A DNA stretch of 63,474 nucleotides, taken from an uncultured Clostridium sp. (GTDB lineage Bacteria > Bacillota > Clostridia > Lachnospirales > Lachnospiraceae). The position numbers and the translations under genes are program-made. The notes beneath the pieces are model-generated. The model saw only the letters and a program-made list of their open reading frames with translations, was not told where the DNA came from and did not search any database. Below, piece by piece: positions 1,473 through 44,872 of this stretch (position 1 is the stretch's first letter; each line of letters opens with the position of its first letter). The DNA lies in contig CAMNRM010000026.1 in the NCBI GenBank assembly GCA_946553025.1, positions 1-63,474 on the forward strand. The letters are read 5' to 3'.

Positions 1473-1499
1473 TGCCGTATTCCTCTGTATCATGATTGT

Positions 1500-1529
1500 A
1501 TTGTACTATTATCGGTCAGGATTTTGCAA
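1500..1529 (-). promoter_or_regulatory. Possible promoter of the AraC gene
   Basis: On the minus strand TTGCAA (1524-1529) and TACAAT (1500-1505) are separated by 18 bases. On the plus strand a TATAAT -10 box for glgP lies at 1551-1556 without a good -35 box, which would fit an activator-dependent promoter. Confidence 0.4.
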
Positions 1530-1610
1530 GTTTTTCTTTTTCTTTTTTTGTATAATGTTTGTATCGTGTTACTATCCAAACATAAACCAGATTAAGGAGG
1601 TATGGATTTC

Positions 1611-24208: not shown

Positions 24209-24227
24209 GCGTTATTTTTCCCTCCAT

Positions 24228-24302
24228 ACTGTGTCGATTTCCCGAAACTGTATCCATTTCTTAAAACCGTATCGATTTTTTTAACTGTATCGATTTATCA
24301 GA
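24228..24302. repeat. 19-bp tandem repeat between rfbG and rfbH, four units
   Basis: Units ACTGTGTCGATTT, ACTGTATCCATTT, ACCGTATCGATTT and ACTGTATCGATTT follow each other every 18-19 bp. The tract fills most of the 107-bp junction. Confidence 0.8.
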
Positions 24303-24315
24303 TAATTCCGTTGTT

Positions 24316-25386: not shown

Positions 25387-25428
25387 AGGTTTCATTCCTC
25401 CGTTTTGGCATGTTTCCGTTTGCATGGC

Positions 25429-26199
25429 TTACCAGTTTTTCCACGGCGCATTGCCCGACTGCCACAGCTTTTCAAGCTCCTGCTTATCTCTCTGGTTATC
25501 CATGCATTTCCAGAAACCGCTGTGGAAGAAGGCCATCATCTCCCCGTCCCGGGCCAGCCTGCGGAAGGGTTCCTTTTCAAGAACCGTTTCATCCCCTTCC
25601 AGATAGTCAAAAATTCCCGGGTTCATCACCATAAAGCCCCCGTTAATCAGCGCCCCGTCCATACACTCCTTTTCCCGGAACGACCGAACCTGTCCGCCCT
25701 CCTGGATATCCAAAACACCGAAGCGCTGGCCTACATTGACGCTGGTAAGGGTTGCGATTTTTCCGTGTTCCCGGTGAAACCTCTCGAGTTCGGTAAGATT
25801 AATATCCCCCACGCCGTCACCGTAAGTCAGCATAAAGGTTTCCCCTTCCACATAGGGGCGAATCCTTCTTACCCTGCCTCCGGTCATGGTATTTAACCCC
25901 GTATCCACCAGCGTAACCTTCCACGGCTCTGCATAATTATTATGCACCTCCATCCGGTTATTCGCCAGATCAAAGGTCACATCGGAGGTGTGCAGGAAGT
26001 AGTCGGCAAAAAACTCCTTCACAATGTACTGCTTATAACCCAGACAGATAATAAACTCATGAAACCCAAACTGGGAATAATACTTCATAATATGCCATAA
26101 AATCGGCTTTTCTCCAATTTCAATCATGGGCTTTGGCTTTAAATGACTTTCCTCACTGATTCGTGTGCCAAAACCTCCTGCCAAAAGAACTACCTTCAT
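25429..26199 (-). CDS. rfbF: Glucose-1-phosphate cytidylyltransferase
   Basis: Makes CDP-glucose from CTP and glucose-1-phosphate, the first step of the dideoxyhexose route. 256 residues with the nucleotide loop LAGGFGTRISEESHLKPKPM, then IGEKPILWHIMKYY and FMLTYGDGVGDI. Length and motifs match RfbF closely. An AAGGGG site lies before the ATG. GlgP could supply glucose-1-phosphate, but that link is speculative. Confidence 0.95.
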   Translation of the reverse strand: MKVVLLAGGFGTRISEESHLKPKPMIEIGEKPILWHIMKYYSQFGFHEFIICLGYKQYIVKEFFADYFLHTSDVTFDLANNRMEVHNNYAEPWKVTLVDTGLNTMTGGRVRRIRPYVEGETFMLTYGDGVGDINLTELERFHREHGKIATLTSVNVGQRFGVLDIQEGGQVRSFREKECMDGALINGGFMVMNPGIFDYLEGDETVLEKEPFRRLARDGEMMAFFHSGFWKCMDNQRDKQELEKLWQSGNAPWKNW

Positions 26200-27746: not shown

Positions 27747-29726
27747 TTATGGACTCTCTTCTTCACCCGCTTCTTCCTCGGTTTCCATCGCTTCTTCCTC
27801 GGTTTCAATTTCAAGAAGGGCGGTCAGGTGCTTCTCTCCCCGCTGTTCCAGGGCATTTTCCACATAAAAGTTGCTTTTTATCTCTACATCCAACGTCTGG
27901 TAAGGGTTGGACAAAATCTCTGCCACATAGATGTTTTCCCTTACCGAAATCCGCTGCTGTAAGTTTCCGTCAACATAAATCTCCGTCTGTTCATCCCCGT
28001 AAAGCTCCCCGGGGTATAAAAACCGAAGCCGGATTTTTCCTGTGCTTCCGCTTAAGATGGTAAACCTGCACTCTTCATCCATCCAGCCGTCCGCATAAAT
28101 CCCGTAAGCAGGGTTAAACTTTAATTCCCTGACAAACTGCGTGACATCCTGAAAAACCCCGTTTTCCTTATCCAGATAAAGCAGAAGCATCTGCTGGTTC
28201 ACCAGCCCGATATCCCGGATACTGTCGATGCAAATCAGTTTTATTTTCGATTCTTTTTTCTTTCCTGCAAATGTTTCAAAGAAAATCTCTGCTGTCCGCT
28301 CATCGACTGCATCATCATCGCCAAGAAGATAAATCGTTTTTCCAAAAATCCCCTCTTTGTATTTCCCGTAAGTTTCCCTGGCCAGGGAATTTACCTTTAC
28401 CTGTCTTTCCCAGAAATACAAGTTGTTATAATGGCTTCTGAAGAACAGCTCCGCCGGCAGCATAAGCACCAGATAAAGCACGGCACCGCCGCACAGCACC
28501 CATTTTCCATAACGCTTTTTCTGTGCCTGCTGGTGGGCGTGCTGGGAGAGAAAATTCGCCTCTGCACCGTCGCCGCCGGGAGCATTTCCCGACCATCCGC
28601 CCGCTGCAGCGTGACTTTCTCCCTGCCCCTCTTCCGGCAAAAGCACTGCGCCGCACAGATACATCATAAGCAGTAAAAATCCGCCATAGGAAACATAGAC
28701 CCACGGCACTTCCACCTGCCGGGAAAAGCTGCTGGAAAGTATGCACAGCCCGATAAACACAAGAAACAAAAGGCTTTCGGCAAGGCGCTGCACCCGCTCT
28801 TCTTTTTCTTTTACTGCCCTGACAAGGAATGCTGCCGCCAGGAAAACCAGCAAAATATCCGCGCCGTAAACCAGCCCGTGAATCAGCCCGGGAGCATCGT
28901 TCCAGGAAAGGGCGTTTAAGTGCTTTGGGCCCATATTAAGGCCCAAAAGATAAGCCGCCTGCTGCGCCCCATGGAAAAGTACTTCTTTTAGCGAAACACC
29001 TTCCCCTTTTATCCCCTGCACGATTCCGTCAAAAGACGACCTGCCCATGGCCAGAAAACGGATAAGGACGACCAGAAGAAGCTGGCGCAGAGGCCAGAAC
29101 CATTTGCGAAGCTGATAGCGCTTTTTTAAGATTAAAACCAGATAAAACAATAAAACCAGCACCATAAACCGCTCGTGAACGAAGCAAAGGGCAAAATAAA
29201 GGATGCACGCCCCATGGAAATACCATATTTTTTCCTGTTTTTCATGAAAATATACATAAAGGCAGTAAAATAATCCAATAGCCAGAAAACAAACCATGGT
29301 TTCCAAAAGCCCCATCACCTGGCCAATCTGATAAAAGGCCATGCGCGACGCCAAAAACAAAATCCCGGCAAAAAAGCCTAAAATCTTCCTTCCGGAAAGC
29401 CTTCCTCCCAGATAATACAAAAACCCTGCCAGAATGCTGTTAAGGATGATATTGATCAACCGCATCCATTCGATTCTCGTCCCCGCAAGGGTAAATTCCA
29501 GCCAGGAAGCCAGGTAATAAAGGCATCGAAAATTTGTCCCTCCAACCGGAAAAACATACCGGAAAAAAGAAGTTTCGCTAAAACCTGCCCATAAATACAG
29601 ATCGTCTTCTGCCAGTCCGCATATCGCTATCCCGCGGTTTACCCAAAAACAAAAACCAAAAAGAAGCAGTATCGCTGCCACATCATTATTGAATTTTAAC
29701 CTTTGTTCCATAGAAAGTGGTTTCAC
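27747..29726 (-). CDS. Membrane glycosyltransferase-like protein, GT-C-like, 659 residues
   Basis: A hydrophobic N-terminal part of about 11 helices (residues 10-430) with the acidic loop LAEDDLYLWAGFSE after the first helix, as in GT39/GT83-type transferases where Asp/Glu here bind the polyprenyl-phosphate sugar. A soluble domain of about 200 residues follows, likely outside the cell. It ends in a short repeat (ETEEEAM, ETEEEAG) made by a 21-bp duplication. The GTG at 29726 is the start: GAGGAGG lies eight bases before it, while the next ATG is too far. Substrate unknown. Confidence 0.65.
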   Translation of the reverse strand: MKPLSMEQRLKFNNDVAAILLLFGFCFWVNRGIAICGLAEDDLYLWAGFSETSFFRYVFPVGGTNFRCLYYLASWLEFTLAGTRIEWMRLINIILNSILAGFLYYLGGRLSGRKILGFFAGILFLASRMAFYQIGQVMGLLETMVCFLAIGLFYCLYVYFHEKQEKIWYFHGACILYFALCFVHERFMVLVLLFYLVLILKKRYQLRKWFWPLRQLLLVVLIRFLAMGRSSFDGIVQGIKGEGVSLKEVLFHGAQQAAYLLGLNMGPKHLNALSWNDAPGLIHGLVYGADILLVFLAAAFLVRAVKEKEERVQRLAESLLFLVFIGLCILSSSFSRQVEVPWVYVSYGGFLLLMMYLCGAVLLPEEGQGESHAAAGGWSGNAPGGDGAEANFLSQHAHQQAQKKRYGKWVLCGGAVLYLVLMLPAELFFRSHYNNLYFWERQVKVNSLARETYGKYKEGIFGKTIYLLGDDDAVDERTAEIFFETFAGKKKESKIKLICIDSIRDIGLVNQQMLLLYLDKENGVFQDVTQFVRELKFNPAYGIYADGWMDEECRFTILSGSTGKIRLRFLYPGELYGDEQTEIYVDGNLQQRISVRENIYVAEILSNPYQTLDVEIKSNFYVENALEQRGEKHLTALLEIETEEEAMETEEEAGEEESP

Positions 29727-29765: not shown

Positions 29766-32408
29766 TCAGTTTTCCAAAACCTTCATCCCTATCTGCTGAT
29801 AAAACGTTTCCGCCTCCCCTTCAGGATCAGAAGGAAGCTTCCCGTCCAGATTCACCTTCCCCAGCATATTTCCCTCTTCAAAATAAAGCTGCACAAGGCT
29901 TCCCTCCTCAATCAGATAGCGAACCACGTCATAAACCCGGCTTCCCTCCTCCAGATATCCGGCTTCCACATAGATATATTCGGTTTTCGCAAAACGGAGA
30001 AAGGCTTTAAAATCCTCCAATGTCTTTACCAGGCGGACATTTCCCCCGCTTCCGGTAACATCATAATAACTCTGCACATTACAGGGAAACTGCAAAACCA
30101 TGGGATGTTCCCCCGCGGCAATCACCCGCGTTTCGGGATTTTGCGAAAGAATCTGCCATATCTGTTGGTTTCCGGACGCACATTTTTCGGCATAGCGTTC
30201 CTGCTGGTGATTCACTACTCCGCCATGCAGAAACTTTATCGGTGTAAATCCCTTCGTCCCCGCCCAGTTCGTCCCCAGGATAAGCCCGGTCTGGATAAGG
30301 ACAAATCCGGCAAAGACCAGAGGCACAAGATACGCCATGCCGCAGGAAGGTTCCTGTTTCCTGCATCCGCTATCTTCCTGCTCCCGGTTCCGATTCCTGT
30401 ATCCGTTATCTTTCCGTTCCCTGTTTCGGCTTTCGTTATCCTCCCGCCCCCAAAAACCTGCATTTTCCAGCGAAAAACTCCCTGCCATCGCCGCAAGCAC
30501 ATAAAAGAGCATGTAATAGTTTCCGTCCACCTGCCAGAGCAGATAAAGGCTTAACAGGTTAAACAATCCTAAAACAATTATGGATACCTTCAGGCATCTT
30601 TTTTCCTTTTCCCTTCCCATCCCCCAAAACACCCAGGCCGCCAGACCCAGAAATACAATCGAACTTCCCCAGGCCAGGCGGACATGAAACATATCGTCCC
30701 CTGTCGGGGCAAATAACACACCGAACAGACGCTTCAGCAAAAAGGAAATGCTCTCCCACACGCCCATCTGCATCCCTTCATTGGGAATTGAAGAAAAAGC
30801 ATAGGGCCATTTGACCGAAAATCCCAGTTTCTCCCAGATAGAAGTAAATACCGACGTCGTCAAAACCCCGGTCATCCTCCAGGTGCGAATCCACATCCCC
30901 GCCAGTGCCCCGGCGCAGGGAAGTACCGGCATAAGCAGCACAGACAGCGAAAAAACGCTCTTTAAACGTCCATCTGCCTGTTTCTCTTCCTGTTTCTTTC
31001 CTGCCCGTTTTCTCCCTTCTGGCTTTCCTTCATCCCGTGTTCTTTCCGTTTCCGGCAAAAATCCCCCGCCAAGCACTAACGTCCCCAGACATCCCAAGGC
31101 AAGCAAACTTGAAAAGACCAGCGAAGTCGGCTTTAATGCAAAGCTGAACAGACACGCTCCCAGGGCAATGCCAAACCACCCGCTTTTTTCCTCTGCCCGC
31201 GAAATTTTAAAGATTTCCACCGCCGCCCATAAGATACAGAGCTGACAGACCAGGGTGAGCAGATCGCTTTTTGCCGTTATCCCCATATTCATTATTCCAG
31301 GAATCAGGGAGATAAGCATCCCGCAGAAAAGCCCGGTCGTTCTTCTGCGGCTGATCCGAAAAACCAGTCCTGCACAGAGCACCACCACAAGCACAGCCAT
31401 CCAGAGATTAAAGCAAAGCTGGAATCCGTAGGTGATTGTCCCGCTTAAGGGAAAAGTAAGGACTTCCCACCCCTTAGAATAGGTGTAGACAAGGTGGATA
31501 TTGCCCAAATCTTCATAAATTCCATGCCCTGCATCCAAAATATAGTGCGAGCGAAGCCCGTAATGCAGGGAATCATAGTCGGGCATTAAATTAATCCGGG
31601 CAAGCTGAACAAAAACCATGGTCAGGATCACCGCAAGAAAAAATTTCTCTGCACGGTTAAAACTGCCTGCCTTTTTTAAAAACCTCTCTGCACCGTTAAA
31701 ACTGCCTACCTTTTTTAAAAACCTCTCTGCACCGTTAAAACTGCCTGCCTCTTTTAAAAACTGCCCGGCATCGTTAAAGCCTTCTGCCTCTTTTGGCTCT
31801 TCTGCCCGCTTTCCCGCTCTTCCTTCACTTACGGCTCTGCCCCGCATTTCAACCCCGGTTTCTAAAGCTGCCGCCAAAACCAGCACGGCGGCAATCCCCC
31901 GCATCCGGCCCACACCGCCGATGCGAAATGCAGAAAGAACACAGACCAGACAAATCCAGCACCCGCTTCCCATAAGAAAATCGGCAAGCAGGCGGAAATA
32001 TATATTGTCCATCTTCTTATTCAACACAGAATGGCGAAAAATAACATCCCCAAAAAGCAGCAGACCGGCCAGCCAGCACCCGGCAGCCAGAAAGGGAACC
32101 AGTATCTGATGACACCAAAGCCCTAATCCCAGCCAGAAAAACACTCCTGCGGCCCGCACAACCCTTTCCCTTCCCCGGGGCAATTTATGCAAAAACCATT
32201 TCGGCGGGAAGAAAAAAAATAACTGCCCGGCAAAGATAAGCAGGGTTTCCCCCAGCATCTGCCTTCCTTCCGGGCCAAACAGCTTTTCTTTCATTGGCGC
32301 GGAGGAAAAAAAGGCCCCCATGCCAGATACCAGGCAAACTGCGGTCAGCACCAGAAAAAGCCAAAGCCGGAACTTATCGTCCTTTCTGCCTGTTTTTTCT
32401 CTCAACAT
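29766..32408 (-). CDS. Large polytopic membrane protein with an internal 13-residue repeat
   Basis: 880 residues with more than a dozen hydrophobic helices. The loop RINLMPDYDSLHYGLRSHYI near residue 280 has the acidic GT-C pattern, so a lipid-linked-sugar transferase or polymerase is likely. Before it is a cytoplasmic-type loop with 13-residue repeats (FNGAERFLKKAGS), and a later loop with Arg/Asn/Glu repeats (RNREQEDSGCRKQE). The soluble C-terminus ends near residue 880. The start ATG follows AGGAG. It overlaps no neighbour, and a family-2 transferase gene precedes it by 34 bases. Confidence 0.6.
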   Translation of the reverse strand: MLREKTGRKDDKFRLWLFLVLTAVCLVSGMGAFFSSAPMKEKLFGPEGRQMLGETLLIFAGQLFFFFPPKWFLHKLPRGRERVVRAAGVFFWLGLGLWCHQILVPFLAAGCWLAGLLLFGDVIFRHSVLNKKMDNIYFRLLADFLMGSGCWICLVCVLSAFRIGGVGRMRGIAAVLVLAAALETGVEMRGRAVSEGRAGKRAEEPKEAEGFNDAGQFLKEAGSFNGAERFLKKVGSFNGAERFLKKAGSFNRAEKFFLAVILTMVFVQLARINLMPDYDSLHYGLRSHYILDAGHGIYEDLGNIHLVYTYSKGWEVLTFPLSGTITYGFQLCFNLWMAVLVVVLCAGLVFRISRRRTTGLFCGMLISLIPGIMNMGITAKSDLLTLVCQLCILWAAVEIFKISRAEEKSGWFGIALGACLFSFALKPTSLVFSSLLALGCLGTLVLGGGFLPETERTRDEGKPEGRKRAGKKQEEKQADGRLKSVFSLSVLLMPVLPCAGALAGMWIRTWRMTGVLTTSVFTSIWEKLGFSVKWPYAFSSIPNEGMQMGVWESISFLLKRLFGVLFAPTGDDMFHVRLAWGSSIVFLGLAAWVFWGMGREKEKRCLKVSIIVLGLFNLLSLYLLWQVDGNYYMLFYVLAAMAGSFSLENAGFWGREDNESRNRERKDNGYRNRNREQEDSGCRKQEPSCGMAYLVPLVFAGFVLIQTGLILGTNWAGTKGFTPIKFLHGGVVNHQQERYAEKCASGNQQIWQILSQNPETRVIAAGEHPMVLQFPCNVQSYYDVTGSGGNVRLVKTLEDFKAFLRFAKTEYIYVEAGYLEEGSRVYDVVRYLIEEGSLVQLYFEEGNMLGKVNLDGKLPSDPEGEAETFYQQIGMKVLEN
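31645..31800 (-). repeat. 39-bp tandem repeat inside the 880-residue membrane protein
   Basis: Units containing GCACCGTTAAAACTGCC recur every 39 bp near 31651, 31690, 31729 and 31768. They encode 13 residues each (FNGAERFLKKAGS) in a cytoplasmic-type loop and keep the frame. Confidence 0.85.
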
Positions 32409-34440: not shown

Positions 34441-35097
34441 TCACTCCGAAAAAAATCTCTCTTCCAGCATCAGGCATAGGGTATGGTAGACCGGAAGATG
34501 AAGTTCCTGGATCTGATAGGTTTCCTTTTCCGGAACCACAATAACTGCGTCCGCCGCATTCCGAAGTTCTCCGCCGTCCTTTCCGGTCAGTCCGATAACC
34601 TTCATCCCTTTTGCCCTGGCGGCAGCGGCGGCATACAGTACATTTTTTGCATTTCCGGAGGTTGAAATTCCCAAAAATACATCGCCAGATTTCCCATAGC
34701 CGTAAACCTGCTGCGCATAAATCAGTTCCCCGTCCACATCATTTAAAAAAGCCGTAGAAAGTCCGGGATGACCGGTCAGTGATATCGCAGGAAGCGCTCC
34801 CTGAAGTCCGGCGGCAAGAATCTTTCCCCGCTTGGGGTCAATTTCTTCCAGTGCCCTGGCAAAATCCGCCGGAACAGGACGTTTCTTGCAAAATCCCTTC
34901 ATCAATTCCCCCACCATGTGCTCGCTGTCCGCGCAGCTTCCCCCGTTGCCGGCAACCAGAAGCTTATTGCCCTGCAGAAAACATTCCTCCAAAATCCGGT
35001 AAGCCCCGTCGATATCTTCCCTTACCGAAGCCAGAATGGGGTAGCGCCGTATTAATAGCTCCAGTTGTTCATTCACCCTTGTATTTCTATCCATCAT
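34441..35097 (-). CDS. gmhA: Sedoheptulose-7-phosphate isomerase
   Basis: SIS-domain enzyme of about 218 residues that turns sedoheptulose-7-phosphate into D-glycero-D-manno-heptose-7-phosphate. The phosphate loop is LLVAGNGGSCADSEHMVGEL near residue 45-65, and the second SIS segment is GDVFLGISTSGNAKNVLYA. FARALEEIDPKRG resembles the family's inserted catalytic loop. GAGG lies eight bases before the ATG. Together with hddA, gmhB and hddC it completes the GDP-heptose route. Confidence 0.92.
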   Translation of the reverse strand: MMDRNTRVNEQLELLIRRYPILASVREDIDGAYRILEECFLQGNKLLVAGNGGSCADSEHMVGELMKGFCKKRPVPADFARALEEIDPKRGKILAAGLQGALPAISLTGHPGLSTAFLNDVDGELIYAQQVYGYGKSGDVFLGISTSGNAKNVLYAAAAARAKGMKVIGLTGKDGGELRNAADAVIVVPEKETYQIQELHLPVYHTLCLMLEERFFSE

Positions 35098-35149
35098 CCG
35101 TCATCCTCTATCTTCTTATTCCCGGTCAGGCATTGCCTGCTTCCTGCAA

Positions 35150-35235
35150 GAAACTGCCTGTCCTCTGTCAGAAACCGCCTGCTCCCCTGCTGGAAACTTC
35201 CTGTCCTCTGTCAGAAACCGCCTGCTCCCTGTCTA
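35150..35235. repeat. 43-bp direct repeat at the gmhB end
   Basis: CTGTCCTCTGTCAGAAACCG starts at 35158 and again at 35201. The stop codon of gmhB (35168-35170) lies in the first copy, so the second is translated into its repetitive tail (SDRGQEVSSRG). Confidence 0.75.
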
Positions 35236-35902
35236 AGATCCACCGTGCCACATCCAAAAGCGTATCGCCAAAGTAACCAAGCCCTTCCTTCGCCGCTTCC
35301 GTTCTGCCCTGAACCTTATCCCTATTCTGATATTCGTCAAACATCTCTTTTCCATACCCGGTTCCCACCAAAGCCGTCGTCAGCCCAAAGCGAAATCCGG
35401 ACTCAATATCAATCCACTTATCTCCAATCATATAGGAATGTTCTTTATCCACCGCCTCATCCTGTTCTGCCTGTTCAAACATCCCTGTATCCGGTTTTCG
35501 GCAGCGGCATTGCTTTTTATACGCTCCCACACCGTGCTCCGGATGGTGCGGACAATAGTAAAACTGGTCAATATGCGCTTCCTCAGCGGCAAGAAGGCGG
35601 TTCATATATTCGTGAAGTTTCCGAACATCTTCTTCACTGTAATAACCTCTTGCCACCCCGGCCTGATTCGTCACCACGACAACCCGAAACCCGGCCTGGT
35701 TCCAGAGCCGCAGCGCTTCGACAACCGTAGGCAGAAAGCGAAGATCCGCTGTCCGGTGAAGGTAGTGAACCTCCTCATTCAAGGTTCCGTCCCGGTCTAA
35801 GAATATCGTTGCCCTTCCTGCCCCGCAGCTTTTTCCTGCCCCACAGTTTTTCCCCGCCGTGCATATTTTTCCTGTCATCCCTGTTTTCCCCGCCCTACAC
35901 AT
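35168..35902 (-). CDS. gmhB: D-glycero-D-manno-heptose-1,7-bisphosphate 7-phosphatase with repeat tails
   Basis: HAD-IIIA phosphatase that removes the 7-phosphate after HddA has acted. The HAD core begins at residue 32 (TIFLDRDGTLNEEVHYLHR, both catalytic Asp present), with VVVTNQAGVARGYYSEED and CPHHPEHGVGAYKKQCRCRKP, where the zinc ligands Cys-His-Cys-Cys are visible, and SYMIGDKWIDIESG. The first ~30 residues are six-residue repeats (AGKNCG, AGKSCG, AGRATI) and the end is also repetitive; both are absent from usual 175-190-residue GmhB. No start codon lies between repeat and core, so the repeat must be translated. Its start overlaps hddA by eight bases. Confidence 0.92.
   Translation of the reverse strand: MCRAGKTGMTGKICTAGKNCGAGKSCGAGRATIFLDRDGTLNEEVHYLHRTADLRFLPTVVEALRLWNQAGFRVVVVTNQAGVARGYYSEEDVRKLHEYMNRLLAAEEAHIDQFYYCPHHPEHGVGAYKKQCRCRKPDTGMFEQAEQDEAVDKEHSYMIGDKWIDIESGFRFGLTTALVGTGYGKEMFDEYQNRDKVQGRTEAAKEGLGYFGDTLLDVARWILDREQAVSDRGQEVSSRGAGGF
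35812..35900 (-). repeat. 18-bp tandem repeat at the gmhB start, about five units
   Basis: Units of the form TTTTTCCTGCCCCACAG recur about every 18 bp. They encode the AGKxCG hexapeptides at the N-terminus of GmhB. Confidence 0.7.
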
Positions 35903-36965
35903 CGAAACTATACTCCCCGTGCGTGGTCACGACATTGACTTTGTGGTAATCCCAGCGCAGATCATCCGAAATCCAGCTCTGTGCGCCGCGAAGTTCAAAA
36001 TTCCAGTCGGTAAGCTGTCCTCCGGCGGCCTCCAGGCGCTCGGCAACTTTATGGCGCACATTGTAGGGGCAGTACATCAGCAGATAACCACCGCCGCCCG
36101 CACCCAGAAGCTTTCCGCCCAGTGCTCCCGCCTCCATGGCTTCGTTGTAGAGGGCATCCACCTGGGGATTGGTAATCTTCGTACTCATCCGCTTTTTGCT
36201 CTCCCAGCTGATATTTAAAAGGCGGCCAAAGGCGTAGAGGTTTCCTTTCAGCAGTTCATCCTTCATGGCATAGGCCAGGGCCTTTACCTCACACATGGCA
36301 TTAAAGGCGTCCACCTTTTTATAGTTGCTGACCTGATCCTGAATAATATTCGCCGAAACATGGACATTTCCGGTATAGCACAAAAGCAGGTTATACTGCA
36401 GCTCGTGCAGGATATCTTTTTTAATGCGCAGGGGGTTGACCACCACGTTATTGCGCCCGTGAAATTCGATAAAATTAATCCCGCCAAAGGTCGCCGCATA
36501 CTGATCCTGGTAGCCGCCGGAAATCTTTAAATCCTCCCGCTCAACCTGGTAGGCAAGATCGGCAAGCTGATAGCCGTCCATCTCCATTCCCTTCCACCGG
36601 GCCATGGCAATCAGCATTGCCACCATAACCGTCGATGAAGTCCCAAGGCCGGAACCGGGCGGCGCATCGCACTGTAAGTAAACCTCACAGCCCTTATTAA
36701 TCTTCATGGCCTTTAACGCAGCCTTAACCAAATCAAGCTTTCCATCATAGACATAGTTTTTCTTGGTATTATATTTTACCGTCATATCAAAATCCAGGGA
36801 ATGAACCACAATCTGGTTATCCTCTCTGGGTACGATCGAACAGTACGCATATTTATTAATCGTACTTCCGATAATCGCCCCGCCCTGTTCCACACAAAAA
36901 GGGGCTACATCCGTTCCTCCGCCGCCAAAACTCACCCGAAGCGGCGCTCGTCCTCTGATTACCAT
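35895..36965 (-). CDS. hddA: D-glycero-D-manno-heptose-7-phosphate 1-kinase
   Basis: GHMP-family kinase of 356 residues that phosphorylates C1 of heptose-7-phosphate in the alpha form used for GDP-heptose. It starts IRGRAPLRVSFGGGGTDV, has the ATP loop PPGSGLGTSSTVMVAML near residue 100, and KLLGAGGGGYLLMYC near the end. The ATG overlaps the stop of hddC by seven bases and its own stop overlaps gmhB by eight, so three heptose genes are translationally coupled. Confidence 0.93.
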   Translation of the reverse strand: MVIRGRAPLRVSFGGGGTDVAPFCVEQGGAIIGSTINKYAYCSIVPREDNQIVVHSLDFDMTVKYNTKKNYVYDGKLDLVKAALKAMKINKGCEVYLQCDAPPGSGLGTSSTVMVAMLIAMARWKGMEMDGYQLADLAYQVEREDLKISGGYQDQYAATFGGINFIEFHGRNNVVVNPLRIKKDILHELQYNLLLCYTGNVHVSANIIQDQVSNYKKVDAFNAMCEVKALAYAMKDELLKGNLYAFGRLLNISWESKKRMSTKITNPQVDALYNEAMEAGALGGKLLGAGGGGYLLMYCPYNVRHKVAERLEAAGGQLTDWNFELRGAQSWISDDLRWDYHKVNVVTTHGEYSFDV

Positions 36966-37675
36966 ACCACAACTCCTTTTCTTACGTCCTCCTGAAAGCG
37001 GAAATAGTCCTCCGGCACACCGATATCGATAAAATAGCCGTCGTTCACCATCCCGCCCAGGCGATAGCCGGACTTTTCCCGGTCAAGCCATCGGGGAATC
37101 ATCTCATTTTCCAGGGAAACCTTTCCCGCCGGGATCTCCTCCAGAAGCTTTTTATGCATCAGATACACCCCGCCGTTAATCGTTCCCGGAACCGGCTCGG
37201 TTGTCTTTTCATTAAATTCCACCAGCATATCCTGCACCAGCACGGCGCGGCCATAACGGGATACATCCGGCACCCGGCGAAGCACCAGAGCAAAATCCAG
37301 GTTTTTCTCATCCCGCAGCTTTAACAGCCGATGATAATCCAATTGATAAAACGTATCTGCATTTAAAACAAAAAACCAGTCTTCATGGATGTGCTTTCCT
37401 GCATTTTTTATCGCCCCGGCAGTTCCTAAAAGTTCTTCTTCATAGGCATAGGAAGCCTTTATCCCATAAGCGCTTCCGTCGCCGAAATATTCCTCCACCA
37501 TAGAGCCCTTATAGCCTACGGCAAATACAATATCCCGAATTCCATAGCGGGAAAGTTCATGGACAACATACTCCATAAACGGCTTACCTTCGATTAACGC
37601 CATGGGCTTTGGACGGTCGCTGACCACCGTGCGCAGCCGCGTTCCCAAGCCCCCGGCCAGTAAAATTGCCTGCAT
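36959..37675 (-). CDS. hddC: D-glycero-D-manno-heptose-1-phosphate guanylyltransferase
   Basis: Nucleotidyltransferase of 238 residues that joins GTP and heptose-1-phosphate to give GDP-heptose. The loop is LLAGGLGTRLRTVVSDRPKP, followed by PFMEYVVHELSRYGIRDIV and FFVLNADTFYQLD. Sequence type alone could fit other sugar-1-phosphates, but the overlapping neighbours hddA, gmhB and gmhA define the product. AGGAGG lies nine bases before the ATG. Confidence 0.92.
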   Translation of the reverse strand: MQAILLAGGLGTRLRTVVSDRPKPMALIEGKPFMEYVVHELSRYGIRDIVFAVGYKGSMVEEYFGDGSAYGIKASYAYEEELLGTAGAIKNAGKHIHEDWFFVLNADTFYQLDYHRLLKLRDEKNLDFALVLRRVPDVSRYGRAVLVQDMLVEFNEKTTEPVPGTINGGVYLMHKKLLEEIPAGKVSLENEMIPRWLDREKSGYRLGGMVNDGYFIDIGVPEDYFRFQEDVRKGVVVW

Positions 37676-37699: not shown

Positions 37700-40600
37700 T
37701 TAAGAAAAATCCTCCTCAATCACCTTCCAGGCCGCATCCACGCTGAAATGCTCCCGGATATAGGTCTGCGTCCTGCGGCACATGGCAAGGAGCCTGTCCT
37801 TATCCTCATAAAGTTCGGCTGTCTTTACGGCAAAATCATCCGGATCGTCGGCAATCTCCAGCACGGTTTCCACGCCGGGGATTCCCTCTGCGCCCACAGA
37901 GGTCGTGACAATGGGTGCACCGTTATAAATTGCTTCCACAATCTTTCCCTTCACCCCTGCACCGTAGCGAAGCGGTGCCACGACAATCCGGCAGGAAGCA
38001 TACAGACCTGCCAGTTCTTCTTCGGTAACAAATCCTTTAATGATTATACCGTTTTCTTCGGAATGCAGGGCCTGAATCTCCTCCGTAACCTTCGAGCCTA
38101 CGACATAGAACCTTATCCCCGGTATGCGCTCGCGGATGTGCGGGAAGACATCCTTTGCAAACCAGAGCACGGCGTCGGCATTCGGCGGATGGGCAAAGCC
38201 GCCGACAAACAGCAAGCCTTCCCGCTTTGCAAAGTCCTCCGGAATATTTTCCAGAAACTCCTCATAGACATAGGCCGTAATCGCCTTTAACGGAATCTCC
38301 GGGTCAATCTTATGGATGGCTTCAACCTCCACATTCGACGGATAATAGGAAACCGCCGCCTTATACATCATGGAAAATTCCACGGACTTCCAGTAATCGG
38401 AGTCCCGCTTTTCCTTTAAATCGCCGGTCAGCTCATACTCGCGGCGCTTGCGCAGAAAATGCAGGTCGTGGCCGTAGTAAATCAGCCGGCTGCTGGTATT
38501 ATTTTTAATATAGTCAATGTACTTGCTGGCAATGTGCGGGCGGTTTAAGTAGATATAGTTAATCTCATCCCCGTTTTCTTTCAGCCAGTCCCAGATCCTT
38601 GTCTGGTAATCCGGGCCGTACAGGACCTCTATCCCCATCTGCATTAAGGTTGTGGCGTAGGGCTCTTCTCTGCTGAAATTATCCCCCAAAAACTTGACCA
38701 CATAGCCTTTTTTCAAAAACATTTTTAAATACTGGAAGGTGGTCTTCGAGCCTGCGTCGCGGTCGTAGGTGGGCACATAGTGGTCGATCACCAGAATCAC
38801 CGGCTTTCCCACCGAGCGCTCCCTGGCCCGGAAAGGATTAGGGCTTCCCGTATTGACGCACTGCTTTTTAAATTCGTCCTTCCATTTTTCCTTCAGCTTT
38901 TCGCTGTTTTCCACCTGATAGCGCTTAAGTCCCGTGCCTTCCACATCGGTTCCGTTGGAAATCCCCTCAAAATGAATTACCGTGGAAAGCGGCTGGTAAA
39001 CCACCCGGTATCCGGCCTTTCTCACTTCAAAGGCAAGGTCGGAATCCTCGCAGTAAGCGGGGGCAAACCGCTCGTCAAAGCCGCCAATCTGCTTCCACAG
39101 CTCATTCGATAAAAGAATCGCCGCGCCGGAAATATAGTCTACATCCTTAACATAATTATATTCTGCCTTATCCGGATCGTCCAGACGCCCGTAGTTCCAG
39201 CCCGAACCGTCGCTCCAGATAATTCCCCCGGCCTCCTGTAGCCTTCCGTCAGGATAAACTAACTTGGAACCAACCATGCCAATCGAAGGGTCGGAGGTAA
39301 TCAGGCTGACCAGCGAACTCAGCCAGCCTTCGGTGACCTTGGTATCGTTATTTAAAAACATCAGATAGCGGCCTCTGGCTTTTGCCGCCGCCTGGTTGCA
39401 GTTGCGCAGAAATCCCTGGTTTTCACTGTTGCGGCTGATCACCAGGTTTTCCGAGTAAAGCCCCAGATCCTTTGTCGCATCCGTAGACACGTCGTCCGCG
39501 ATAATCACCTCATAGGTAACATCCTTTGTAAACTCCAGGATAGATTCCAGGCAGGCATAGGTATAGTGAATCTGGTTGTACACGGGGATAATAATGGATA
39601 CCATGGGCTGAACATCCCCCAGTGCAGGAAAGATAAGCTTCCCCTTTTCCAGGTAATCGTTGCCGATAGCAAAGTCGCCCGCAATACGGTTCCTGCCCAT
39701 CTCGGTCAGATACAGCTTTCCGTAACGAATGGGATGCTTTACGGTATTTATCCCATAGTCCAGAATCTTTCTTTTTTTGCTTCCCTTGGGAAAATGGCTG
39801 CGGATCTTATCCATAATCCTTCTCTTCGTTCGGTTGAGCATGGACTCGTGCTTTTCCAGATAAGCAATTAAGATTCTCATCTCATCAATATCATGACGAA
39901 GCTGCTTAATCATCCCTTCAAGGTTCGCGATATGATTATTGGAAAGGCGCTGAACTTCGTTTCGCTTGGTAATCTCCACCTCTTTCGTGCCCAGGGTTTC
40001 CTCAAGCATGGCATACTTGATGTTCAGCCCCTTGTGCTTATCCTGCAGATCCTCCAGCACGATTTCTTTGGAAAGCAGGGTATCCACGGTTTCCACCGGC
40101 TGCTGGTAGCGGCGCAGATAGCCCTGGCTGCTGTCGCCGTGGACAAAGGTCTGAAAGCTCTCCTCCATAGCCCCGTACTGCTTACAAAGTTCTTCATCCA
40201 TGCCAAACAGGCCAAAAAACGCATAGAGATCCTGCCAGCCAAAGGAACTTTTAAAACGTTCATAAAAATAATATAAAATTCTGTATTTTAAGTAGCCATA
40301 CGGAACAGGAAAATCAAAAACCCACTCGTAGTCCATCACCCATGTTCCGTCCTGCGTGATCATCAGATTTTCAAACAGCCCGTCCACATTGGAAACCGAA
40401 AAACTCTGATCGGCAATCTCCGGCGCTTCTCCAAACACCCGGCGAAATTCGTCGGTCGGCACAAAAGCCTTATCCGGCTGCCCCGGTGAAATCCCAAGAC
40501 CCTCCTCTAAAACCGCCGCTACCGGTTCTCCTGCCTGAATCCTTTTCGCCAGCCGCTCGGCCAGTGTTTCCCCCTGTAAAAAGCGAAAACGGGCGTAGAC

Positions 40601-40819
40601 GGCTTCTTCGGAAAATATCGGCTCCAGCACCTTTATTTCCGGGTTCTGTCCGGAAAGCGCCTCCCTCTTTTTCGCCAGCGACCGGATATGGGACTCTCCT
40701 TCGGGGCAGAGCGGCGTTTTCTCCACATAGCGCACACCGTCTTCCTCGATAATACTTGTCCGGATCTGATACTGCGGCTTTCTGGTTCGGTTGTATTTTA
40801 CAAATAATGTCTGTTTCAT
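37700..40819 (-). CDS. Fusion protein: kinase-like domain, coiled coil, GT2 and GT4 glycosyltransferases
   Basis: About 1039 residues in four parts. Residues 1-240 look like a degenerate protein-kinase-like fold: NVDGLFENLMI (near 145-153) and VMDYEWVFDFP (near 161-171) match the catalytic and metal-binding loops of the sugar-kinase half of WbdD-like proteins. Residues 245-345 form a coiled coil (LLSKEIVLEDLQDKHKG onward). Residues 405-650 are a GT2 with VSIIIPVYNQIHYTYACLES, IIADDVSTDAT and MFLNNDTKV. Residues 700-1039 are a GT4 with the nucleotide-sugar segment YGAGVKGKIVEAIYNGAPIV. The ATG overlaps the stop of the methyltransferase gene by four bases, so the two are coupled. It may add sugars and cap or measure chains; activity of the kinase-like part is inferred only. 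Confidence 0.85.
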   Translation of the reverse strand: MKQTLFVKYNRTRKPQYQIRTSIIEEDGVRYVEKTPLCPEGESHIRSLAKKREALSGQNPEIKVLEPIFSEEAVYARFRFLQGETLAERLAKRIQAGEPVAAVLEEGLGISPGQPDKAFVPTDEFRRVFGEAPEIADQSFSVSNVDGLFENLMITQDGTWVMDYEWVFDFPVPYGYLKYRILYYFYERFKSSFGWQDLYAFFGLFGMDEELCKQYGAMEESFQTFVHGDSSQGYLRRYQQPVETVDTLLSKEIVLEDLQDKHKGLNIKYAMLEETLGTKEVEITKRNEVQRLSNNHIANLEGMIKQLRHDIDEMRILIAYLEKHESMLNRTKRRIMDKIRSHFPKGSKKRKILDYGINTVKHPIRYGKLYLTEMGRNRIAGDFAIGNDYLEKGKLIFPALGDVQPMVSIIIPVYNQIHYTYACLESILEFTKDVTYEVIIADDVSTDATKDLGLYSENLVISRNSENQGFLRNCNQAAAKARGRYLMFLNNDTKVTEGWLSSLVSLITSDPSIGMVGSKLVYPDGRLQEAGGIIWSDGSGWNYGRLDDPDKAEYNYVKDVDYISGAAILLSNELWKQIGGFDERFAPAYCEDSDLAFEVRKAGYRVVYQPLSTVIHFEGISNGTDVEGTGLKRYQVENSEKLKEKWKDEFKKQCVNTGSPNPFRARERSVGKPVILVIDHYVPTYDRDAGSKTTFQYLKMFLKKGYVVKFLGDNFSREEPYATTLMQMGIEVLYGPDYQTRIWDWLKENGDEINYIYLNRPHIASKYIDYIKNNTSSRLIYYGHDLHFLRKRREYELTGDLKEKRDSDYWKSVEFSMMYKAAVSYYPSNVEVEAIHKIDPEIPLKAITAYVYEEFLENIPEDFAKREGLLFVGGFAHPPNADAVLWFAKDVFPHIRERIPGIRFYVVGSKVTEEIQALHSEENGIIIKGFVTEEELAGLYASCRIVVAPLRYGAGVKGKIVEAIYNGAPIVTTSVGAEGIPGVETVLEIADDPDDFAVKTAELYEDKDRLLAMCRRTQTYIREHFSVDAAWKVIEEDFS

Positions 40820-41661
40820 ATCGATTTCTCCCATAGCAGCAAAAACGAATTGGCAAACTGCGCAAAGCCCCCGGCCTCGCAGAGCGCACTGTAAGCGGCA
40901 TCTTCAGAAAACAGCCTGTGCCGCGGTTTTTCATACGCCGCAAACATCGCCGGGATCTCCCCTTTCGCCGGCGGATAGATATCCGAATAAATCGCGGAAG
41001 GCAGCTTATAATCCGGAAGCGGATAATACATCTCTTTCTTTTTTCCATGCAGGCTGTCCACAATCGTATTCAGTTCCGTTAATGCCACCGTCAGCTCCTC
41101 GGTATCCGGTTTATCGCCGGACCACACCCGCATCGAATGGGTGTTGGGAAATGCCAGCACCATATGTCCCCCCGGGCGGGTCAGCTCGGCGGCCCTGCGG
41201 ATCTTTTCAATCACGGTAATCCGCTGCTCCTCCTGCTTATCCCAGTTATCCTTTGCCCTGCTTATGCCAAAAACCGCCTCGTTCGTTTCGGGACCGATTA
41301 AGAATACCCAGTCAAACTGCTGCCCGGTTAAGTCCTTATCCTCCCCCTCCTGGTAGCGGATATTTGTGAAGTTTTTATGACGTCTTTTGCTGACCTCCAG
41401 GTTTTCCACCCGGGGATCGATAACCAGAACCTCCCCGGCCTTCCTTGCCAGTGCACCCGTAACCGCCCCGTAACCGGAACCAATCTGCAAAACCTTCTCA
41501 TCTTCTCCAATGGCCATCCATTCCACCAGATTTTCCCGAATCGGCGATAAGGCCATCAGAACCTCCGGCGCGGTCTGGCTTTCCAGAATACGGTTAATCC
41601 CCGCCGCATCTGCCCCATATTCCTCCATAAGATCTAAAATATCGTAGCTGATATCTTTCAT
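40816..41661 (-). CDS. SAM-dependent methyltransferase
   Basis: 281 residues of class I Rossmann type. Motif I is VLQIGSGYGAVTGALARKA (about residues 59-77), VLVIDPRVENLEVSK binds the SAM ribose, and LTRPGGHMVLAFPNTHSMRVW is the later motif. It is a free-standing domain with no membrane part. GGAGG precedes the ATG. Coupling by ATGA overlap to the kinase-like/coiled-coil glycosyltransferase suggests methylation of a sugar or sugar phosphate at a chain end, as WbdD does in one polypeptide. Confidence 0.85.
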   Translation of the reverse strand: MKDISYDILDLMEEYGADAAGINRILESQTAPEVLMALSPIRENLVEWMAIGEDEKVLQIGSGYGAVTGALARKAGEVLVIDPRVENLEVSKRRHKNFTNIRYQEGEDKDLTGQQFDWVFLIGPETNEAVFGISRAKDNWDKQEEQRITVIEKIRRAAELTRPGGHMVLAFPNTHSMRVWSGDKPDTEELTVALTELNTIVDSLHGKKKEMYYPLPDYKLPSAIYSDIYPPAKGEIPAMFAAYEKPRHRLFSEDAAYSALCEAGGFAQFANSFLLLWEKSI

Positions 41662-41698
41662 TCTTTCCTCCGTTTAATGCCTGTTTCAAAACACCCCG

Positions 41699-41797
41699 TA
41701 CCCGGTTCGTGCAGTGCTTTTCTAACCCCAAAACGATGAATCCGGCAGCCCTTACACCTGTACCCAAAACCCGTGCAGTGCTTTGCCAACCCAAAAA
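41699..41797. repeat. 61-bp direct duplication between wzt and the methyltransferase gene
   Basis: GTACCC followed by CGTGCAGTGCTTT and AACCCAAAA is found at 41699-41734 and again at 41760-41797 in the 144-bp junction. Confidence 0.7.
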
Positions 41798-41805
41798 TCC
41801 ATCCA

Positions 41806-43239
41806 TCAGTTTCCGCGCTTCACTGCCTTCACCTGGGATTCCATATCGTAGACGCCCACCGTATTCTTATTGGATATCACGGTGATATTCGCCACATCGT
41901 ACAGGCGGTGGTAGACCACATGCTCTCCGTGTTCAAATCCCGTACAGCTCATGGACAGCAGATATTCCCCTCCCTGCAGGGTCATCTTCTGCGTAAATTC
42001 CACCTGGTACTCGTCGCCGCTTTTTACGGGCTGAATCTCCGTGCCCTCATACATCGTATTCGTACCGGAAAGCTCCGTACCTTTTTTATCCTTAATTGTA
42101 TAGGTAAAGATCGGTGCCTCAATCGCGGACGCAAAGCGGATGCACTCCCGGATGGTAAACAATTCTCCTTTAAGCAGAAGGTTGGTTAAATTCCCCCGCT
42201 GGTCAAAAAGCCCCAGATCATAAATCTCTGCCCGCCCGTCGCCGTACTCCGTCCGGTTCTCATTAATCGTAATCTGCTCCTTCATCAGTCCGTCATGGAT
42301 TCCCCCGGAAAAATCCGACATGGAAATCCCGCCGCCTTCCTCAGAACCCCTGTCGCCTTCTTTCGTATTCCCGCTGCCCGTTTTTGTATTCCCGCCTTCT
42401 TCCAGAGCCTTTTCAGCCTCCTGCGCCTTAGAACCCACAGCATTTAATACCTGTTCCCTCTCATGCTGTAATTCTTCCATCAGAGAATCCAATTTCCCGG
42501 CAAGGATTTTTTTATATAAATCCACCATGTGTCCGGCGCTTCCCTCGGCAATAAACTCTCCTTTATTTAAAAGCACGACCTTATCACAGTACTTGATAAT
42601 ACTGCCCATATCGTGCGTAACCATTAATATCGTCGTCCCGCTCTTGCGGATCTCTTCCATGCGCCGGTAACACTTCGCCTGGAAAAATACGTCGCCCACG
42701 GACAATGCTTCGTCCACAATTAAAATCTCCGGCTCCACATTAATCGCCAGGGCAAAGGCAAGGCGCACAAACATACCGCTGGAATAGGTTTTTACAGGCT
42801 GATACACAAAATCCCCGATTTCCGCAAAGTCCAAGATCTCCTGAAGCTTTGCATCCATCTCCCTGCGCGAATAGCCCATCATCGTCCCATTCATATAGAT
42901 ATTTTCAATACCGGTGTAGTCCATGTTAAAGCCTGCCCCCAGTTCCAGAAGGGCGGAGATCTTTCCCTTCACCTCCACCTGTCCCGAGGTCGGCGTAAGC
43001 ACACCGGTAATAATTTTCAAAATCGTAGATTTTCCTGAACCGTTCGTCCCGATAATTCCCACCGTCTGCCCTTTTTCCACCGTAAAAGAAATCGTATTTA
43101 AGGCAAAAAAATCCTTGTGATAGCTTTTATGGGTCAGACTTAAGGATTCCTTTAAGCGGTCAATCGGTTTATCATACAAACGGTAAATTTTTGTCACATC
43201 ATTTACCGCTATGGCACATTCCTTTTTTTCTTCTGACAT
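41806..43239 (-). CDS. wzt: Polysaccharide ABC exporter, ATP-binding subunit with C-terminal glycan-binding domain
   Basis: About 477 residues. The ATPase half has Walker A GIIGTNGSGKSTILK (near 61-75), the signature YSSGMFVRLAFALA and Walker B ILIVDEALSVGD. A charged, repetitive linker (EEGGNTKTGSGNTKEGDRGS) leads to a C-terminal beta-sandwich (about 320-470) of the Wzt_C type, which in E. coli O8/O9a recognises the capped end of the chain. Such a domain implies a modified terminal residue, which fits the methyltransferase gene directly downstream. Partner permease is wzm, separated by the metallopeptidase gene. Confidence 0.93.
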   Translation of the reverse strand: MSEEKKECAIAVNDVTKIYRLYDKPIDRLKESLSLTHKSYHKDFFALNTISFTVEKGQTVGIIGTNGSGKSTILKIITGVLTPTSGQVEVKGKISALLELGAGFNMDYTGIENIYMNGTMMGYSRREMDAKLQEILDFAEIGDFVYQPVKTYSSGMFVRLAFALAINVEPEILIVDEALSVGDVFFQAKCYRRMEEIRKSGTTILMVTHDMGSIIKYCDKVVLLNKGEFIAEGSAGHMVDLYKKILAGKLDSLMEELQHEREQVLNAVGSKAQEAEKALEEGGNTKTGSGNTKEGDRGSEEGGGISMSDFSGGIHDGLMKEQITINENRTEYGDGRAEIYDLGLFDQRGNLTNLLLKGELFTIRECIRFASAIEAPIFTYTIKDKKGTELSGTNTMYEGTEIQPVKSGDEYQVEFTQKMTLQGGEYLLSMSCTGFEHGEHVVYHRLYDVANITVISNKNTVGVYDMESQVKAVKRGN

Positions 43240-43359: not shown

Positions 43360-43959
43360 TTACACGCCCTGTCCGTAAGTTTTCAGCCACCTTCTCCTCT
43401 CCTGGTAGTCAGGAAGGATTTTTTTGACCTCGGCCCAAAACGTAGGAGAATGATTCATTTCCTTTCGGTGGGCCAGTTCATGAACCACCACATAGTCCAA
43501 AACCTCCGGCGGCATCAGCACCAGCTTCCAGTGAAAATTTAAGTTTCCCCTGCCGCTGCAGCTTCCCCACCGTGTCTTTGCTGCGCGGACAGTAATCTTT
43601 CCATAGCTTACCCCCATAAGGCGGGCAAAATACGCCGTCCTCTGCTGAAGCTTCTCCCTGGCCTGCCTGCGGTATCGGTTTTCCAGCGCCGGATATTTTA
43701 CATAGTCCGGCACCCCTTTTTCCTGTTCTTCCTTCTGCCGGGCCTCCATCTTTAAGACATTTTGGACAATCCACGCCTTCTTTTCTTCCACCATCTGCCG
43801 AATCGCCCGCTCCGGAGCCCTTAACGGTGCACGCACACGCACCAGCCCCTCCCGGTCAACCTCCAGCCCCAGGGTTTTCCTCGCCGAATACACCACCTGG
43901 ATTTCCAGCTTCCGCATTTTTTGTCCGTCAGAAAAATCCAAAAGCAGCTTTTCCAGCAT
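43360..43959 (-). CDS. YgjP-like (DUF45) zinc metallopeptidase
   Basis: About 199 residues. The zinc motif is VVHELAHRKEMNHSPTFWAEV near residue 155, with HELAH and the later His as ligands. TRWGSCSGRGNLNFHWKLVLMP is the conserved stretch before it. The family is soluble and cytoplasmic and its substrates are unknown. The start at 43959 is chosen from GGAGGA six bases before it. It lies between the permease and the ATPase of the glycan exporter, an unusual place for this usually solitary gene. Confidence 0.88.
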   Translation of the reverse strand: MLEKLLLDFSDGQKMRKLEIQVVYSARKTLGLEVDREGLVRVRAPLRAPERAIRQMVEEKKAWIVQNVLKMEARQKEEQEKGVPDYVKYPALENRYRRQAREKLQQRTAYFARLMGVSYGKITVRAAKTRWGSCSGRGNLNFHWKLVLMPPEVLDYVVVHELAHRKEMNHSPTFWAEVKKILPDYQERRRWLKTYGQGV

Positions 43960-44014
43960 ACGCATTCCTCCATCCTGTTCCTGTTTCCATGGTTCACCGC
44001 AGCAGGCAAAATCC

Positions 44015-44040
44015 ATCCCTGTTCACACATTCACCATAGC
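44015..44040. repeat. 26-bp dispersed element, diverged copy
   Basis: The 16-base core CTGTTCACACATTCAC (44019-44034) is identical to that of the copy at 1447, while the outer arms have decayed. It lies in the junction between wzm and the metallopeptidase gene. Confidence 0.55.
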
Positions 44041-44059: not shown

Positions 44060-44872
44060 CTACAGAACATCCGAAAAATGAGGTCTTAACCGCTTAAACA
44101 CCTTCAGTCCCGCAAGCATCAGCACAATCGTAACGCCCCAGAAATACAGCGTCAGCGTGGGCCTTTCCCAGAACCAGTTTCCGGTCAGCATACTGTCCCG
44201 GTAGCCGACCACAATATAATAAAAAGGATTCAGCTTAAAGACCATCTCCAGCGCCGGAAGCTTCTCGGTAAACATCCCCTCGTCATACATAATCGGCACC
44301 ATCCACATCCCAAACTGCAGGGCAATCCCCACAATCTGCGACATATCCTTAAAAAACACATGGATGGCACAGGTCAGATAGCTGATGGCCAGGGCAAGCA
44401 TCGCCGCGGCAAACGAATAGTAAATCACCTGAATCCAGGTCATTAACGGCAGCCATCCATAGCAGAAATACAGCCCGAACATGATCAGGATAAAGAATGC
44501 GTGAACCATCATACAGGAAAAAAGCTTAATCAGCGGCAGAACCTCCACCCGAAACACCACTTTTTTCACCAGATAGCTGTATTCCTGCAGGCAGCCCGTC
44601 CCGGTATTTAACGCCTCGCTGAAGAAAAACCAGGGAACAATCCCGGGAACCAGCCAGAGGACGTAGGGCGCGGGAACCGGCGGCTCCGATTTAAACCCAT
44701 AAGGCCCGAAGATCATAAAGTAAATCAGCACCGTTACAATCGGCTGGACAAACATCCACACAATGCCAAAATATGACCCGACAAAGCGCTTGCGGAAATC
44801 CGCCTTCCCCAGGTCGAATATCATCTTTCTTTTTTTAACAATCTCCTTGACAAGAGATAAGACATAATTCAT
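44060..44872 (-). CDS. wzm: Polysaccharide ABC exporter, permease subunit
   Basis: 270 residues of the ABC-2 type with six helices. RKRFVGSYFGIVWMFVQPIVTV near the N-terminus and FKLNPFYYIVVGYRDSML near residue 220 are typical of O-antigen and teichoic-acid exporters (Wzm, TagG). It pairs with the Wzt-type ATPase to carry a lipid-linked glycan across the membrane. GGAGAAAGC precedes the ATG. The C-terminus ends shortly after the sixth helix. Confidence 0.93.
   Translation of the reverse strand: MNYVLSLVKEIVKKRKMIFDLGKADFRKRFVGSYFGIVWMFVQPIVTVLIYFMIFGPYGFKSEPPVPAPYVLWLVPGIVPWFFFSEALNTGTGCLQEYSYLVKKVVFRVEVLPLIKLFSCMMVHAFFILIMFGLYFCYGWLPLMTWIQVIYYSFAAAMLALAISYLTCAIHVFFKDMSQIVGIALQFGMWMVPIMYDEGMFTEKLPALEMVFKLNPFYYIVVGYRDSMLTGNWFWERPTLTLYFWGVTIVLMLAGLKVFKRLRPHFSDVL

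Follow-up and report, generated by a model that had tools for sequence, protein, structure and literature searches.

The stretch examined here (the window) is a 63,474-nucleotide contig of an uncultured Clostridium sp. (CAMNRM010000026.1, assembly GCA_946553025.1), whose minus strand carries an ABC transporter gene pair followed by a methyltransferase (MT) gene and a gene fusing a kinase, a coiled coil and two glycosyltransferase (GT) modules of families 2 and 4 (GT2 and GT4; Table 1). An earlier note on this DNA had described these parts from wzt onwards, and each was found where it had been placed. Residues 329-466 of the wzt product are a Wzt_C domain (PF14524, expectation value (E) 1.9e-40), the single Wzt_C match in the whole genome; the MT matches Methyltransf_25 above the cut-off (E 6.3e-7); and the fusion protein contains the motifs NVDGLFENLMI and VMDYEW, a GT2 (PF00535, E 2e-22) and a GT4 (PF13692, E 4.6e-24). 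The MT stop codon overlaps the ATG of Met6 of the fusion protein as ATGA, and the start of the fusion gene is likely at 40819 because its relatives begin at or near Met6; the overlap would couple translation of the two genes. The kinase is single-copy in this genome. What is new is that the MTs of the clade to which the window belongs have lost Y28, Y158 and H206 (30/30 scored) and yet are under selection, while the kinase residues (K/D/N/D/E) are intact in 46/46 GT-fused members with a separate MT.

Table 1. Features of the glycan terminator locus and its neighbourhood in the window
Feature	Position	Strand	Basis
MT: class I methyltransferase, homologue of the O7-type terminator MT	40816..41661	(-)	Methyltransf_25, profile comparison
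ATGA stop/start overlap of MT and fusion gene	40816..40819	(-)	sequence; start by homology
Fusion gene, 1044 amino acids (kinase, coiled coil, GT2, GT4)	37700-40834	(-)	open reading frame, domains
Kinase domain (KIN), residues 6-239, K39/D151/N156/D168/E170	40118..40819	(-)	homology, AlphaFold
Coiled coil, residues ~250-347, proposed molecular ruler	39794..40087	(-)	heptad score, AlphaFold
GT2 module, ~residues 410-680	38795..39607	(-)	PF00535
GT4 module and stop, ~residues 681-1044	37700..38794	(-)	PF13692
wzt: ABC ATPase with C-terminal Wzt_C glycan-binding domain	41806..43239	(-)	Wzt_C at 41842-42255
YgjP-like metallopeptidase gene, between wzm and wzt	43360-44016	(-)	domain search
wzm: ABC-2 permease (ABC2_membrane), likely partner of wzt	44060..44872	(-)	Pfam domain
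hddC, hddA, gmhB and gmhA-like genes, directly downstream of the fusion gene	34441..37675	(-)	best or near-best named models

No Pfam family matched kinase residues 6-239 of the window at E <= 1, and at the same threshold a kinase family was matched in 0/29 relatives, the window included. The kinase-like fold that the earlier note had proposed for this region was supported by modelling: the AlphaFold model of the domain, made with 61 distant homologues (predicted local distance difference test 81, predicted template modelling score 0.76), has strands at residues 9-15, 24-31 and 34-41, with K39 in the third, followed by a helix at 44-60, and its Foldseek search gave kinase-like folds in all 50 listed hits (the best 50 of 1175), each match being weak individually. 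Some hits without the word kinase in their titles (for example PRPK, LicA, Cph001, Rv3910 and 5j7b) are ones that we take to have the kinase fold. The 50 hits listed when the coil was included were kinase-like again. Profile matches of the kinase to JAK1 and JAK2 (E 0.12-1.4) were too weak for use. Conservation of the catalytic Asp and Asn in homologues agrees with the model: across 29 aligned kinase domains K39, N156, D168 and E170 never vary and D151 is kept in >= 90%, and D151, N156 and E170 are invariant across 62 aligned sequences (the window and 61 O7-type proteins). The D/N/D residues are absent in 3/122 kinase domains of all kinds. One kinase-domain relative (locus L036, reading frame 460-3702) carries S and E where the catalytic Asp and Asn would be, has no called MT next to it and is possibly a pseudokinase; in L088, a fused MT-kinase, changes affect the MT pocket as well as both Asp residues of the kinase.

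The family to which this kinase belongs was sought through fused relatives. Searches by tblastn with two of them (L042 and L039) led to two plasmid records, from Pseudomonas asturiensis and Citrobacter braakii, and each of the proteins found there lies directly after ABC permease and ATPase genes. These are O7-type terminators (L078:7821-12194 and L079:7944-9893), and the C. braakii plasmid is predicted to be conjugative and carries dTDP-rhamnose genes. The published enzyme of this type, ORF6 of Klebsiella pneumoniae O7 (PMC11231755; this and the other papers cited are represented here by part of their text), was compared by proxy, through the P. asturiensis protein (P0007) and its relatives and not through the Klebsiella sequence itself. 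The six S-adenosylmethionine (SAM) residues Y28, Y66, G91, G93, E112 and Y158 have the same numbers in P. asturiensis as in the published ORF6-O7, and its catalytic Asp443 (published D441; PMC11231755) aligns with the D151 column of the window family, as does that of 61 P. asturiensis relatives. A scan of named genomes gave at least 589 such relatives, and the best 80, which were kept, come from Pseudomonas, Nitrosomonas, Nitrospira, Acidobacteria, Bacteroidota and others. A profile of window-type kinases (12 relatives, 11 used, the window's own row left out) matched 78 O7-type kinases in hhalign with Prob 98.2 and E 4.4e-14 over 195 columns, and a profile of 16 window-type MTs (window included) matched 80 O7-type MTs with Prob 100 and E 2.2e-39, while the crossed kinase/MT controls reached Prob 2.3 and 1.2. 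The wider family kinase profile (41/42 rows) gave Prob 99.4 and E 1.1e-21 against the O7-type kinases, and the family kinase profile recognised P. asturiensis in a two-sequence search (E 5.9e-9). By these profile comparisons the kinase and the MT both belong to the O7 ORF6-type line and not to that of WbdD. This line is very probably the Lcin_0519 family, judging from the composition, neighbours and taxa described in PMC9758233.

The earlier note had read the locus as WbdD-like parts distributed over two coupled genes. The two overlapping genes are there; the kinship to WbdD gave way to that with O7 ORF6. The split itself is not unique to the window and is common among the sampled loci of the kinase family. 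The 125 loci fetched yielded 123 kinase genes, with the MT N-terminal in the same polypeptide in 47, in the next gene in 74 (73 called and one, L206, found by its reading frames) and none called in 2; 80 loci were high-scoring matches of the family scan, so that the ratio of separate to fused forms leans to window-like ones. A Wzt_C gene lies no more than 4 genes away in 106/123. What follows the kinase varies, from 40 residues at the shortest to a spacer and two GTs. MT, kinase and GT similarity are combined in a single chain in seven fused proteins (1174-1356 amino acids), three of which (L211, L227 and L244) have the spacer and both the GT2 and the GT4 of the window type. On a quick kinase tree (LG+G4, SH-aLRT only, 131 rows, segments of <180 residues left out) the fused or separate state changes 26 times, with a minimum of 8-9 changes forced by the starred branches. 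Because the parts repeatedly fuse and separate, we read the MT and the kinase as forming one functional unit. The recurrence of the gene order elsewhere, together with the catalytic residues, in >100 loci makes the observation more than chance. Kinase relatives were found by sequence search in 34/98 related genomes and by profile search in 219/397 genomes drawn from the window's family and 11/398 drawn across the phylum; viral contigs scanned with A1 and with the window fusion protein (P0001) gave no relative.

The MT states were scored in 112 sequences (the window and 111 loci), leaving out reading frames at contig edges, fused reading frames with a kinase start before residue 241 and loci in which no upstream MT had been called. 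METHYLTRANSFERASE is changed: Y28, Y158 and H206 (P. asturiensis numbering) are all kept in 69/112, all absent in 41/112 and mixed in 2/112, and each is present in 20/20 O7-type sequences. In the supported clade of the window (33 rows), the 30 rows that lost all three are joined by 3 unscored ones, and the fused L211, L227 and L244 have lost them too. By type, the three residues are lost in 11/78 sequences other than the GT2+GT4 type and kept in 4/34 of the GT2+GT4 type. Two motifs found without alignment follow the same division: an EDH-type motif occurs in 69/71 MTs keeping any of the residues and in 2/41 of the lost MTs, and a LIGxxEY motif in 67/71 and 0/41, respectively. The MT label (kept or lost) changes 8-9 times on the kinase tree, with a minimum of 5-6 forced by the starred branches, and the change is most simply seen as repeated loss. 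Y28 and Y158 correspond to published SAM contacts (PMC11231755), and the conservation of H206 suggests that it is catalytic. The window MT lacks Y28, Y66 (Met at this position), Y158 and H206; it keeps G91 and G93 and has Asp at the position of E112.

The lost MTs are apparently maintained. R72, L88, G95, R124, G184, N192, P248 and P250 are kept in 30/30 of the pocket-lost GT2+GT4 set, and the ratio of nonsynonymous to synonymous substitution rates is 0.13-0.25 for the MT in 5/8 pairs (the other three were saturated) and 0.07-0.20 for the kinase, which indicates that the window-clade MT is under purifying selection despite the loss of pocket residues. Methylation is likely lost in the window MT, and a methyl-phosphate cap is doubtful in the clade because its MT has lost conserved pocket residues. 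The strongest competing explanation, which we hold to be unlikely although it has real points in its favour, is that the MT is active despite its changed pocket and that the pair installs a methyl-phosphate like O7 ORF6 and WbdD, over two proteins. It would account for the purifying selection, for the MT standing next to the kinase, or in one chain with it, among the clade members examined and for the glycines and acidic residue of the window MT, and other fused relatives mostly retain a complete pocket. The joint absence from the window clade of three residues found together in 69/112 MTs and each in 20/20 O7-type sequences argues against an active MT, as does the replacement of G93 by Asp in 18/30 clade members. 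Pocket-lost loci have the more uniform Wzt_C domains (0.81 vs 0.60 in the 0.85 ATPase-identity bin). A change of Wzt_C together with the MT state was too slight to be claimed (lost-kept pairs 0.538 vs kept-kept pairs 0.572 at equal ATPase identity, in the 0.80 bin).

In the O9a system phosphorylation is enough for chain termination (PMC3482155) and the distance is determined by the coil (PMC5082667), and O7 ORF6 acts on the terminal rhamnose by phosphorylation followed by methylation (PMC11231755). On computed grounds, namely the homology of the domains, the conservation of catalytic residues, the order of the genes, the repeated joining and parting of MT and kinase and the loss of MT pocket residues, we consider it probable that the module is a kinase-driven chain terminator, carried on a coiled spacer fused to the polymerase and keeping the MT as a partner, possibly a pseudoenzyme, that caps a lipid-linked surface glycan and measures it ahead of its export; the capping and length-control module that the earlier note placed beside a Wzt_C transporter is likewise probable. 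We put forward the substrate, the cap chemistry, the ruler function, the docking and the reading of the cap for export as a model. The GT2 and GT4 modules would extend the lipid-linked chain until its non-reducing end reached the kinase, held in the same polypeptide at the far end of the coil, about 14 nm away (97 residues x 1.5 A, by arithmetic); phosphorylation of that end would stop growth, Wzt_C would recognise the capped end, and Wzm/Wzt would export the glycan. The MT made from the upstream gene would dock on the kinase and, where relatives have kept the pocket intact, supply the methyl group for a methyl-phosphate cap. In the window clade the MT would more likely be a retained structural partner, or have a changed activity, and the cap would most likely be a phosphate without methyl, because the conserved pocket residues are lost. 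In the Lcin_0519 model the sheet of the kinase N-lobe runs into the MT sheet (PMC9758233); if this holds here, a separate MT must dock non-covalently because of the sheet continuity, and such docking would explain both the ATGA coupling and the retention of a damaged MT. More tentatively, we suggest that the terminator of this clade may be kinase-only, its MT being a maintained pseudoenzyme on which the kinase depends to fold or to be positioned, and that a bare, perhaps cyclised, phosphate cap is read by Wzt_C.

Several results weigh against a kinase-driven terminator of this kind. The homologues in the alignment of the kinase model are 13-23% identical to the window, and the Foldseek matches are individually weak (best E 0.006, template modelling score <= 0.43, none with E <= 0.001 among the matches listed). 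The family kinase profile was not convincing against C. braakii (E 0.015). The window MT retains GSGYG and the acidic residue, so SAM could still bind, and its residue 93 is Gly where 18/30 clade members have Asp. The docking of the MT is taken by analogy from the Lcin_0519 model (PMC9758233). The coiled coil spans residues 250-347 (about 97 residues by a home-made heptad score), with AlphaFold helices at 250-281 and 283-346, and the spacer is 165-173 residues long in 30/35; its gap columns per 100 residues, 9.0 vs 8.2 for the equally diverged kinase domain, are no fewer, and coil length was therefore dropped as proof of a ruler.

This absence of a special length constraint on the spacer would also suit a kinase that acts on something besides the chain end, such as a branch sugar or an intermediate, with the coil as only a tether or oligomeriser, and so would the kinases that have a tail of 40-76 residues and no GT (L084, L238, L237 and L060). 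Such a target is nonetheless improbable given the homology to an enzyme for which phosphorylation of the chain end was demonstrated in vitro (PMC11231755) and the proximity of Wzt_C genes at 106/123 loci. Among window-type loci the mean identity across genera is 82% for GT2 and 46-47% for the kinase and spacer. GT2 and Wzt_C are uniform while the kinase and spacer diverge faster, though all should act on the same chain end. A motif, RL(S/T)xNHxxNLE, at about residues 296-306 of P0001, is conserved within the otherwise variable coil in most GT2+GT4-type proteins. A profile of the domain that follows the kinase in 25 fused relatives matched 12/44 O7-type proteins and 1/35 window-type spacers in hmmsearch (E < 0.01), and profile-profile comparison by hhalign gave no link either way; an O7-like carbohydrate-binding module (CBM) after the kinase appears to be absent from proteins like that of the window.

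A true WbdD homologue split in two, for which the same kinds of part and the rank 15 of WbdD (4azt) in the Foldseek list with the coil would speak, is highly improbable and largely refuted at the sequence level, since no WbdD was listed among the PDB sequence and profile matches of the kinase or among the 50 listed hits (the best 50 of 1175) of the better model, and the O7-type family match is strong; WbdD membership of the kinase was rejected for want of a listed sequence match.

The arrangement had been thought new in the earlier note, and in this it did not hold: O7 ORF6 and O12 WbbB are published cases of polymerising GTs that carry a fused ruler (PMC11231755), and an MT and a kinase in different genes are often met with among the loci sampled. 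ORF6 of K. pneumoniae O7 (MT-kinase-CBM-coil-GT2-GT2; PMC11231755) shares with the window a homologous MT and kinase (by proxy), the catalytic Asp, a coil, two C-terminal GTs and wzm-wzt in the cluster. Unlike the window module, it is one polypeptide with a CBM between kinase and coil, GT2+GT2 and the SAM-pocket residues present, and it is an enzyme of a Gram-negative O antigen with demonstrated activity. The Lcin_0519 family differs from the window in having the MT fused in 96% and its largest groups in Proteobacteria, and the text of PMC9758233 examined contains no occurrence of 'Firmicutes' or 'Clostridia' or of separate genes in Clostridia. WbdD of Escherichia coli O9a/O8 likewise has a kinase, an MT and a coil ruler and requires a capped end for export (PMC3482155, PMC5082667), but its kinase is not detectably homologous by sequence, its MT and kinase form one chain and polymerisation is the work of another protein, WbdA. 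WbbB of K. pneumoniae O12 has terminator, coil and polymerase in one chain, the terminator being a Kdo (3-deoxy-D-manno-octulosonic acid) transferase and not a kinase (PMC11231755). WsaE of Geobacillus stearothermophilus is Gram-positive, works with Wzm/Wzt and has its terminator fused to two GTs, but it makes a 2-O-methyl cap by an MT and has no kinase (PMC2943079), while in the window the MT is separate and the kinase is fused instead. The S-layer glycan of C. difficile Ox247 resembles the proposed product in being Gram-positive and ABC-exported and in having a phosphate (suggested to be cyclic) on the terminal rhamnose, with no native methyl seen (PMC6254364). The literature searched, with most subscription papers lying outside its coverage, gave no description of terminators with separate MT and kinase in Clostridia, nor of MT pocket loss.

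The window's own genome has Spo0A and no match to LpxC; on these two markers from this one genome the host is probably Gram-positive, in agreement with the setting assumed in the earlier note. The hddC, hddA, gmhB and gmhA-like set corresponds to the GDP-D-glycero-D-manno-heptose route, only gmhB passing its curated cut-off (TIGR00213). Beyond it lie genes for a glucose-1-phosphate cytidylyltransferase, a CDP-glucose dehydratase and RfbH, all three above the curated cut-off, so that one glycan locus holds a CDP-glucose/RfbH-type deoxysugar route (22880-26199) and a GDP-D-glycero-D-manno-heptose-like route. Three large proteins (26241-27671, 27747-29726 and 29766-32408), membrane-type by eye, have no Pfam match at E <= 0.001. 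The gap between wzt and the MT gene (41662-41805, 144 bp) contains a short imperfect direct repeat around AAGCACTGCACG. In seven congeners (L047, L050-L054 and L058) a membrane protein of 400-432 amino acids, acyltransferase-like by eye, lies near wzm-wzt; in the window no such gene was seen in the interval from wzm to wzt.

Kinase-based chain termination, whose enzymology in the cited papers comes from Gram-negative O antigens, is now placed in a large family with a Gram-positive-type member. The family offers a natural series, in which the MT and kinase are fused or separate, the kinase is fused to GTs and the MT pocket is kept or lost; with it, what phosphorylation, methylation and the coil each contribute to setting chain length and to licensing export may be tested one at a time. 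The module also suggests what type of enzyme might make phosphate caps like that of the C. difficile Ox247 S-layer glycan (PMC6254364).

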